A stretch of DNA of 64,000 nucleotides from Stenomitos rutilans HA7619-LM2 (GTDB lineage: Bacteria; Cyanobacteriota; Cyanobacteriia; Leptolyngbyales; Leptolyngbyaceae). The stretch is taken from the NCBI GenBank assembly GCA_019358945.1, contig JAHHIE010000032.1, positions 1 to 64,000 of the forward strand. The letters run 5' to 3'. The position numbers and the translations under genes are program-made. The notes under the pieces are model-generated. The model was given only the letters and a program-made list of their open reading frames with translations. It did not search any database and was not told the origin of the DNA. Shown in pieces: positions 49,317 to 51,676 of the stretch (position 1 is the first letter of the stretch; the number at the start of each line of letters is the position of its first letter).

Positions 49317-49985
49317 TCAAACAGAAGCAGCCAGAGCATTCTTTACAGTTGTATGATGCCAAATCTTTCCTCTTTTAGTGGGAATATTTTGGACGTTCAA
49401 CCAAGCCGCGATCGCGCTGAAAGACTTGCCGGAGCGACGATGTTTTTTCATCAGGGCAATGACTGCTGTCTCAGCAGCGTCAACCACTAGGGCTTTGGCG
49501 ACGGCCCTTTGACCGAGCTTAGGCGCACCATAGGCATAGCCGCCCTGTTCTGCCTTCGCCTTCCGCCCCCCTTGGGTACGCTCGTTGATGACATCACGTT
49601 CCAGTGTGGCGACGGCTGCCATGACAGTGAGGATCATGCGGCCGGTGGGGGTGGAAGTATCAACCTGCAGGTCAAGCAGTACCAGCGCTTTGTTATGGGG
49701 TTGTAAGGTGTCCTCGACGAGTGCCAGCACATCACGGGTATTCCGGGCAATACGATCGAGCTTCAAAGCAATAATCCCGTCTGCCTGAGTCCTGACCAGT
49801 TCCAGAGCCACTTGGAACTGAGGACGATGTTCCGCGTTTTTGCCGCTGCCGACTTCCTGAAAGACTTGGACGAGTTCGTGACCAAAGGCTTCACAATAGG
49901 CGGCAATCCGTCGCCGTTGTTCCGACAGCGAGGTGTTATCGGCTTGCGATTCACTGCTGACACGAATATAACCAACTAATTTCAT
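49317..49985 (-). CDS. Serine recombinase (resolvase/invertase family)
   Basis: The 222-residue protein starts at ATG 49985; the TTG two codons earlier is not needed. The N-terminal catalytic domain has YIRVSSESQADN with the nucleophile Ser, ALKLDRIARN and TPTGRMILTVMAAVATLERD. The C-terminal HTH contains GKSFSAIAAWLNVQNIPTKRG. By family it performs DNA inversion or resolution. A perfect 25-bp inverted repeat lies 28 bases upstream of the start and may be its site or operator. There is no resolvase in the nearby Tn3 elements, so it may serve the plasmid. Confidence 0.92.
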   Translation of the reverse strand: MKLVGYIRVSSESQADNTSLSEQRRRIAAYCEAFGHELVQVFQEVGSGKNAEHRPQFQVALELVRTQADGIIALKLDRIARNTRDVLALVEDTLQPHNKALVLLDLQVDTSTPTGRMILTVMAAVATLERDVINERTQGGRKAKAEQGGYAYGAPKLGQRAVAKALVVDAAETAVIALMKKHRRSGKSFSAIAAWLNVQNIPTKRGKIWHHTTVKNALAASV

Positions 49986-50013
49986 GTTCAAAGCCTATCT
50001 GTGATGGCTTCTT

Positions 50014-50065
50014 AAGCTTAACGCGCCGATAGATTATTACAATAATCTATCGGCGCGTTAAGCTT
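50014..50065. promoter_or_regulatory. Perfect 25-bp inverted repeat upstream of serine recombinase
   Basis: AAGCTTAACGCGCCGATAGA and five more bases form an arm at 50014-50038. It is exactly inverted at 50041-50065 with only AC between. Without a T-run it is not a typical terminator. It is a candidate recombination or operator site. Confidence 0.75.
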
Positions 50066-50407: not shown

Positions 50408-50715
50408 TTGAACATCTAAATGTCTGGACATTCAAGCATCTAGTTTCTTGATTGAGGGCACGTGGGACCTCTTACTCCTTACCTTGAACGACCTGGACGA
50501 CTTAACCCACTACTTTAAGAGTCTAGACATCTGAACATCTGGACATTTAAGTTAGGACTAAGTGAGCCCGCTTATTTCTAACTACGCTTCTGATATCCGA
50601 TAAGAGAGGCAGGAAAAGGCGTTCTGTAGGCATGGAAAACGTTCAGACATCTGAACATTCAAACATTCAAGTTTCTAAACATTCAGACATCCAGATGCTT
50701 AAGCTTCTAAATGCT
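50408..50715. repeat. Partition-site-like repeats ACATCTGGACAT / ACATTCA
   Basis: Repeats of the form (A)ACATCT(G/A)(G/A)ACAT and ACATTCA(A/G) occur in two dense clusters (about 50414-50440, 50521-50552) and one just before parA (about 50643-50715). Such arrays are typical centromeres bound by RHH partition proteins. Confidence 0.75.
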
Positions 50716-50755
50716 TTAGGCGGTAAACTACCGTCAAGCCTCATGAAACTGACCA

Positions 50756-51349
50756 ATGATTATCACGATCGCATCCTTTAAGGGTGGTGTGGGCAAAAGT
50801 ACAACTGCTTTGCACCTAGCAGCGTTTTGCCAAATGAGAGCACCCACACTGCTGGTTGACGGCGACTTAAACCGTTCTGCCTTGCAATGGGCAAGCGCTG
50901 GGAACCTGCCTTTTAAGGTGGTTGACGAGAAGGCTGCCGTTAAGTTTGCCCGCAATTACGAGCATATTGTGGTTGATACCCCTGCTAGACCTGCACCGGA
51001 CGATCTGAAAACACTGGCATCGGGGACGGATTTGCTAATTCTCCCTACATCCCCTGACGCGCTGGCAATGGGGGCAATGCTGCAAATGGTCGACGCACTG
51101 CAAGGTTTGGACGCTGACTATCGCATCTTGCTGACTCTAATTCCGCCAGCGCCCAGCAAGGTGGGGGAGGAAGCGCGATCATCGCTGGAGAGTGCAGGAT
51201 TGCCCCTCTTCAAAACAGGTATTCGACGGTTGGCAGTCTTTCAGAAGGCGGCACTTGAAGGGGTGCCTGTGAATGAGGTGAAAGGCGATTCCTATGCTGG
51301 TATTGCATGGCGATGCTACCTCGAAGTGGGTAGGGAGATTATGCCATGA
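50756..51349 (+). CDS. parA: ParA-type partition ATPase
   Basis: The 197-residue protein is a short ParA/MinD-like ATPase: deviant Walker A FKGGVGKST (residues 8-16), Walker A' LLVDGDLNRSA, and Walker B HIVVDTPARP. There is no N-terminal HTH, so it belongs to the type Ib group, whose partner is a small RHH protein. It moves plasmid copies apart along the nucleoid using ATP. Its stop overlaps the start of the RHH gene by 4 bases (ATGA). Confidence 0.95.
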   Translation: MIITIASFKGGVGKSTTALHLAAFCQMRAPTLLVDGDLNRSALQWASAGNLPFKVVDEKAAVKFARNYEHIVVDTPARPAPDDLKTLASGTDLLILPTSPDALAMGAMLQMVDALQGLDADYRILLTLIPPAPSKVGEEARSSLESAGLPLFKTGIRRLAVFQKAALEGVPVNEVKGDSYAGIAWRCYLEVGREIMP

Positions 51350-51636
51350 GCACCAAGAAAGAAGGGAGCCGCTTTGACAACCTTTTTGGCGCTGTCCGGT
51401 CCGGGCAGGCAGCAGAAACATCTGAACGTTCAGACACTCAAACATCTAATACAACTGAACATCTGGACATCCAGACATCTAAGAGCAAAGACCCTAACTA
51501 TCAGCGGACGACGATTTACCTGCCGAAAGCTATGCATCGACGCCTAAAAGCAGCGGCAGCAACTGAAGGGAAGGAAATGAGCGCGATCATGGAAGAACTG
51601 CTAGAGCTGTGGTTAGACTCAAGGCTAGATACTTAA
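51346..51636 (+). CDS. RHH partition protein (ParB-like) with centromere repeats in its coding sequence
   Basis: The 96-residue protein has a basic N-terminus, then a Ser/Thr/Asp-rich linker (ETSERSDTQTSNTTEHLDIQ, residues 25-45). A clear ribbon-helix-helix domain follows (RTTIYLPKAMHRRLKAAAAT, then MSAIMEELLELWLD). The linker is encoded by the same ACATCTGGACAT-type repeats seen in the intergenic array (51418-51482). By family it binds the centromere and repression sites and activates ParA. Confidence 0.88.
   Translation: MSTKKEGSRFDNLFGAVRSGQAAETSERSDTQTSNTTEHLDIQTSKSKDPNYQRTTIYLPKAMHRRLKAAAATEGKEMSAIMEELLELWLDSRLDT
51418..51482. repeat. Partition repeats inside the RHH gene
   Basis: AACATCTGAACGTTCAGACA, ACTGAACATCTGGACATCCA and neighbours match the intergenic array units but lie in frame within the gene. 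They encode the low-complexity linker. Confidence 0.8.
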
Positions 51637-51676
51637 ACATCTAGACATCTGGAAGCTTAGATGTTTAGATGTTTGC
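51634..51676. repeat. Partition repeats downstream of the RHH gene
   Basis: AACATCTAGACATCTGGAAG and the inverted TTAGATGTTTAGATGTTTG follow the stop codon. They continue the array to the right of the gene. Confidence 0.75.

Follow-up and report, generated by a model that had tools for sequence, protein, structure and literature searches.

The parA-RHH cassette and its iterons

The window analysed here (the whole stretch of 64,000 nucleotides from Stenomitos rutilans HA7619-LM2) has a parA gene followed by a gene coding for an RHH protein, together with iterons clustered in three places, namely before parA, inside the RHH gene, and over and after the RHH stop codon. Direct reading of the sequence gives an iteron unit of 8 nt, arranged in tandem, which consists of a 4-bp ACAT box (ATGT on the other strand) and a 4-bp YYRR spacer. 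The features of the locus are as follows.

50412..50443, + strand: upstream iteron block U1, 4 units of 8 nt, ACATCTAA ATGTCTGG ACATTCAA GCATCTAG (direct reading; repeat family D1)
50519..50550, + strand: upstream iteron block U2, 4 units, GAGTCTAG ACATCTGA ACATCTGG ACATTTAA (direct reading)
50639..50718, + strand: upstream iteron block U3, about 10 contiguous units, some of them degenerate, ending 37 bp before parA
50756..51349, + strand: parA, coding for a 197-aa Walker ATPase of the small ParA/ParF type, without iterons (Pfam CbiA; structure relatives; zone counts)
51346..51636, + strand: gene of the RHH centromere-binding protein (binding inferred), 96 aa, its start overlapping the parA stop (Pfam RHH_1; matches to ParG 1p94)
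51367..51387, + strand: SRFDNLF motif, aa 8-14, a conserved N-terminal element with an iteron count of 0 (alignments; AF2 helix 11-22)
51418..51482, + strand: in-gene iteron array, 8 units arranged as 4 + 1 nt + 4, coding for aa 25-46 of the disordered linker
51505..51618, + strand: RHH fold, aa 54-91, with the DNA-contact strand RTTIYL and no iterons (Pfam RHH_1; alignment; AF2; zone count 0)
51629..51676, + strand: downstream iteron block, about 6 units, of which the first, a degenerate one, shares bases with the final RHH codons and the stop

The in-gene array reads ACATCTGA ACGTTCAG ACACTCAA ACATCTAA T ACAACTGA ACATCTGG ACATCCAG ACATCTAA, and codons 25-46 spell the peptide TSERSDTQTSNTTEHLDIQTSK. 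The tandem pattern ACATYYRRACATYYRR has nine exact occurrences in the 7.28-Mb genome, all of which lie at C23:50527-51672 (1.15 kb) and two of which sit inside the RHH gene, while the reversed control pattern matches the same genome once. In the 13 genomes searched, 38 such tandem pairs were found, nearly all at par loci, with three at clearly distant places. An earlier note, made from the sequence alone, had claimed repeat clusters before parA, in the linker part of the RHH gene and after its stop, and this claim held. The 12-nt unit hinted at by its 'ACATCTGGACAT' did not, and is corrected to 8 nt. A 12-mer scan of the window alone, allowing 2 mismatches, gave 13 matches against 9.1 expected and was without significance, so the tandem 8-nt register, in which the signal resides, was used instead. 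This register is shown.

The window also contains a perfect 25-bp inverted repeat with a 2-bp loop (50014-50065), lying between a serine-recombinase gene (49317-49991) and the iterons. It could serve as a terminator or as a recombination site, or mark the end of an element.

The ParA protein of the window is small, is without an N-terminal HTH domain and has its P-loop at the N-terminus. Its closest solved relative is the ParA-family protein 3cwq, followed by ParF of TP228 (4dzz). The AlphaFold model of the RHH protein possesses a helix at aa 11-22, a stretch of pLDDT <50 at aa 25-40 and a confident C-terminal RHH fold. Alignment of RHH proteins shows a conserved SRFDxLF, then an unconserved linker (rich in Ser/Thr/Asp in the window) and then K-S-x-D-P-x-Y-x-RTTxYLPK with the helices. 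The helix carrying SRFDNLF is likely to be the contact site for ParA, an activity which is inferred. Arg9 of SRFD, considered as an arginine finger, is invariant in one alignment (A2) and conserved at >90% in another (A1); stimulation of ParA by it is likewise inferred.

A profile built from 34 RHH relatives matches ParG (1p94) at E=2e-5, the best match to a partition protein in sequence, with only a weak match to omega. ParG also ranks first in a structural search with the RHH model, though the E-value is weak (0.07). The type Ib trait of short boxes at regular spacing upstream is present, with an 8-nt register over 43 loci (lag-8 z 4.1). The identities of the two genes are shown, and by sequence the cassette is a type Ib (ParF/ParG-like) partition operon; its function in partition is inferred.

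Two other classes were considered and rejected. The omega/parS class of pSM19035 needs 7-bp heptad iterons, and the period here is 8 nt. Type Ia ParABS has an HTH ParB and palindromic parS, and the partner here is an RHH protein of 96 aa.

The contig bearing the window has 78,917 bp, and its recognised genes are accessory only. A search of this contig for the terminal overlap that would indicate a circular molecule found none, and a plasmid search at near-identity gave a match limited to a transposon-sized piece. The label 'plasmid', which the earlier note had attached to the locus, is thus not established for this 78.9-kb contig and its status remains unproven. Relatives of the cassette do sit on complete cyanobacterial plasmids, with a few on multi-megabase contigs, and a scan of viral contigs for the RHH protein found no relatives. 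Similar cassettes were also found in contigs labelled Woesearchaeota and Tatlockia (L009, L011), which are likely misbinned cyanobacterial DNA.

Iterons and boxes among related cassettes

Relatives were sampled through ParA, which was found in 153 of 390 cyanobacterial genomes (E < 1e-40), with a further 31 named contigs added. In relatives with the RTTxYL strand, the ACAT iteron is almost always present upstream of parA and usually also at or just after the RHH stop. Over 34 loci of this ACAT clade, iterons number 9.0 per kb upstream, 0.35 in parA and 10.9 downstream, compared with 0.49 at random. Within the RHH gene of the same loci the figure is 0 in the N-box, 12.7 in the linker, 0 in the core and 18.5 in the C-terminal tail (counted as the last eight codons plus the stop). 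Iterons are thus admitted to the gene solely in stretches where the protein lacks conservation, and their confinement to linker, tail and flanks is shown.

In-linker arrays of the ACAT type occur in the window, in Tildeniella nuda, in the same-family locus L163, in Oculatella (L024), in Pleurocapsa (L030), in L055 and in five loci of one genus (L061-L068), beside which L162 stands as a sixth with a degenerate array. Some 26-28 of the 34 ACAT-clade loci are without in-gene iterons, and in-gene copies must therefore be dispensable to the basic system. When the in-gene label is placed on the ParA tree, which took in those loci that have ParA, at least five changes are needed, two of them forced by well-supported branches. 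The linkers of relatives share no sequence, and those of relatives without in-gene repeats are unrelated. The case that would have refuted a dual role, namely relatives that keep the same linker and lack the in-gene repeats, was looked for and not found.

Two further observations concern this clade. In a subclade that includes multi-megabase contigs (L029, L057, L058, L065, L071), the upstream iterons are kept and exact downstream ones are absent. In L061 and L066, the region downstream of the RHH gene holds more iteron clusters with a decayed second copy of the RHH core between them, a sign that iteron arrays may have recombined.

A mainly regulatory explanation may be considered at this point. 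It assigns the role of true centromere to the flanking arrays and supposes that RHH protein bound at the in-gene array acts on its own gene, whose transcription it would block or tune. In its favour, ParG and omega both repress their operons (PMC7308502, PMC5016525). However, no promoter-like site lies near the in-gene array, one operon with overlapping genes needs an upstream operator only, and the in-gene array is absent from many relatives. This explanation is very unlikely.

In the ParA family at large, an 8-nt register is found upstream regardless of the type of RHH protein, and a sister clade has this register with a different box. The genome of the window itself possesses a second cassette (L152, G000:C52:23460-27030) whose RHH strand is LSIKV and in which CCAG/CTGG boxes build both the upstream array and the RHH linker. 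Among box pairs at lag 8, the ACAT clade has 91 ACAT and 0 CCAG upstream and 21 ACAT and 1 CCAG in the linker; the CCAG clade has 0 ACAT and 62 CCAG upstream and 0 ACAT and 82 CCAG in the linker. These counts are not independent, the rows within a clade being related. Of the 24 CCAG-clade loci, 18 have two or more CCAG pairs at lag 8 within the linker, and such arrays are carried by complete plasmids (PCC 7002 pAQ4 and pAQ7, Crinalium pCRI9333.02, Nostoc HK-01 plasmid7). A third type of box, TACGCAAA, is found in the linker of L155 and also upstream, with linker lags of 8, 24, 32, 40, 48 and 56. On a plasmid of Paludibaculum (Acidobacteriota), the 8-nt register of the linker resembles its own upstream ACAT/ACAG array.

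The box tracks the DNA-contact strand of the RHH protein, ACAT being found with RTTxYL and CCAG with LSIKV or LCVKV, although this is covariation only and no binding data support it. Since one and the same cell has two repeats of different sequence, and each agrees with the flanks of its own cassette, the in-gene repeat can be attributed neither to a mutational habit of the genome nor to a property of the linker peptide. The joint change of box from ACAT to CCAG in linker and flanks is shown, and would be expected if both were sites for the same RHH protein, whose binding is inferred. It is the best evidence for the dual-use reading and supports the claim of the earlier note that one sequence appears to serve as both centromere-like DNA and protein linker; centromere activity is inferred as well.

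It could also be proposed that the repeats are the iterons of a Rep protein and belong to a replication origin rather than a centromere. Origins that depend on Rep typically carry short tandem iterons. Against this, no Rep gene was identified near the repeats, the box follows the DNA-contact strand of the RHH protein, and the arrays always hug the parA-RHH pair. An origin is accordingly regarded as highly improbable.

Some other members of the family should also be mentioned. The CCAG-type RHH gene of PCC 7002 pAQ4 (L195, 594-779) is annotated with 61 aa and appears to be frameshifted in its core; its linker CCAG boxes remain. The complete plasmid pP880102 of Rippkaea orientalis has an ACAT-type parA-RHH pair (L042) and, elsewhere, a CCAG-type RHH gene (L200) with no adjacent parA annotated. 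A non-cyanobacterial locus annotated as ParG, on pThCT3_2 of Thiothrix winogradskyi (L192), has an upstream 8-nt register of ACTC-like boxes and no in-gene array.

Tests of the in-gene array at the DNA level

The N-terminal coding part of the window's RHH gene contains 5 exact iterons against 0.80 expected (p=5e-5), a number not reached in any of 20,000 synonymous recodings of this part, where the maximum was 4. Synonymous-codon tests over six lineages give a combined p=1.4e-14, and the excess over synonymous recoding is shown. When scored with a weight matrix whose training set was intergenic units alone, the in-gene arrays beat their synonymous recodings at all in-gene loci (p 0.0025-0.03). 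Nothing comparable was seen at loci without in-gene iterons, where L015 reached a nominal p of 0.0075 from a single weak unit.

These results bear on the possibility that a linker peptide of the form TSxHxDxQ is what has been selected, the DNA repeat being its by-product. The richness of the linker in Ser/Thr/Asp speaks for this. However, the 8-nt period is not a multiple of 3 and runs through the codon phases, and so a peptide repeat cannot produce the array. The same element is moreover found in non-coding flanks, its iterons exceed what synonymous recoding gives, and no sequence is common to the linkers of relatives. This possibility can be set aside almost entirely.

Intergenic arrays of similar length have 21 of 144 forward frames open, against 46 expected from shuffles. 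As such arrays are mostly closed to translation, the open in-gene arrays are not random copies of the flanking arrays and probably answer to two requirements together. Close pairs were examined for purifying selection on the synonymous sites of the array and showed none. The synonymous divergence of the array is not consistently below that found elsewhere in the RHH gene, and in these pairs the boxes change about as often as the spacers. In one genus (g92), the array diverges by 0.13-0.23 per site versus 0.36-0.61 for the adjoining linker, and this contrast is the sole support for constraint on the array.

The main rival reading is that the in-gene iterons are passengers, copied from the flanking arrays into linker and tail by recombination or slippage, tolerated there because the protein is disordered, and perhaps bound incidentally but doing no work. 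It is favoured by the patchy distribution in the ACAT clade, with its minimum of five changes on the ParA tree, by the lack of clear synonymous constraint, and by the decayed RHH copies between the iteron clusters of L061 and L066, which show that these loci recombine. Against it stand the presence of an in-gene array in three-quarters of CCAG-clade loci (18/24), the lower divergence of the array than of the adjoining linker in g92, and the fact that in-gene arrays remain open when intergenic arrays of like length rarely do. The passenger reading is considered unlikely. That the in-gene copies are functional is the probable alternative and is not proved, both their binding and any contribution of the in-gene block being inferred.

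Proposed mechanism and comparison with known systems

The locus is probably a type Ib cassette whose 8-bp iteron centromere flanks the operon and also runs through the linker and tail of the RHH gene, with the reservation that there are no binding data. In this proposal, RHH dimers would bind the 8-bp iterons cooperatively through the RTTIYL strand and, by analogy with TP228 and pSM19035, coat contiguous iterons. Once loaded, the arrays, which occupy three regions of a 1.3-kb stretch, would use the N-terminal SRFDxLF of the RHH protein to stimulate ParA and so move the replicon. The operon would probably be repressed by the same loaded arrays, an autoregulation inferred from TP228 and pSM19035. 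It may be that iterons spread into the linker and tail for want of any resistance there, and that they now add to the partition complex. As a linker needs only flexibility, length, polarity and disorder, its composition would be set by the iteron. Both box types spell long polar disordered peptides, T-S-D-H-Q-rich for ACAT and K-P-D-N-Q-rich for CCAG.

A bolder reading, to which the evidence gives a slight preference, is that in a large ParA-RHH family the centromere array is a physical part of the binder's gene and dictates the amino-acid make-up of its linker. The linker would be rewritten when box and RHH strand change, giving parallel cases under both centromere and coding constraints. The putative dual-use array is seen with three or more iteron sequences, all fitting a single 8-nt grid. 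It occurs in no fewer than six of the sampled lineages that share one box type, in the majority of the sister clade and on one acidobacterial plasmid. These form a natural series in which to ask how a disordered linker tolerates a sequence written by the needs of DNA, what number and placement of iterons a centromere requires, and how specificity changes jointly in a centromere and its binding protein. The pAQ7 and pAQ4 cassettes, residing in the transformable PCC 7002, make dual use testable.

The ParF-ParG-parH system of TP228 resembles the cassette in its small ParA, in an RHH protein with a flexible N-terminal tail encoded just downstream, and in upstream degenerate tetramer boxes with spacers (PMC7308502, PMC5016525). 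The N-terminal tail of ParG stimulates its ParA partner (PMC7308502). The present cassette differs in having ACAT or CCAG as its box, and in that its arrays flank the operon at either end and also run along the RHH linker.

In the delta-omega-parS system of pSM19035, too, the RHH protein sits on short iterons that adjoin one another, whether in direct or inverted orientation. Its full ParA activation needs at least 4 contiguous repeats (PMC9499535), a number met in the window by several blocks of at least 4 units in the three regions, including both half-blocks of the in-gene array. It differs in its 7-bp heptads, which lie in promoter regions, and in its separate transcription units; as noted, the sequence match to omega is weak.

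A gene that contains the cis site for its own product (binding being inferred here) is known from pSK41, where the origin lies inside rep and codes for an interdomain linker of dispensable protein sequence (PMC5703833), and from phage lambda, where ori-lambda is within gene O (PMC6022878). The window array agrees with this architecture in location, register and disorder, the dispensability of its linker sequence being inferred. However, those are replication origins at one fixed internal location, whereas here a presumed centromere also occupies both flanks and recurs with different iterons. In some Rhizobiales repABC replicons, repB carries parS at its 5′ end (PMC9040568), so that a centromere site lies within the binder's gene, but this is a palindromic parS for an HTH ParB and there is no linker-coding iteron array. 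No report of RHH centromere iterons inside the gene of their binder was found in the literature searched, from which subscription papers were mostly absent. The principle of a cis site within the binder's gene is already known, and its occurrence with RHH centromere iterons appears to be new.
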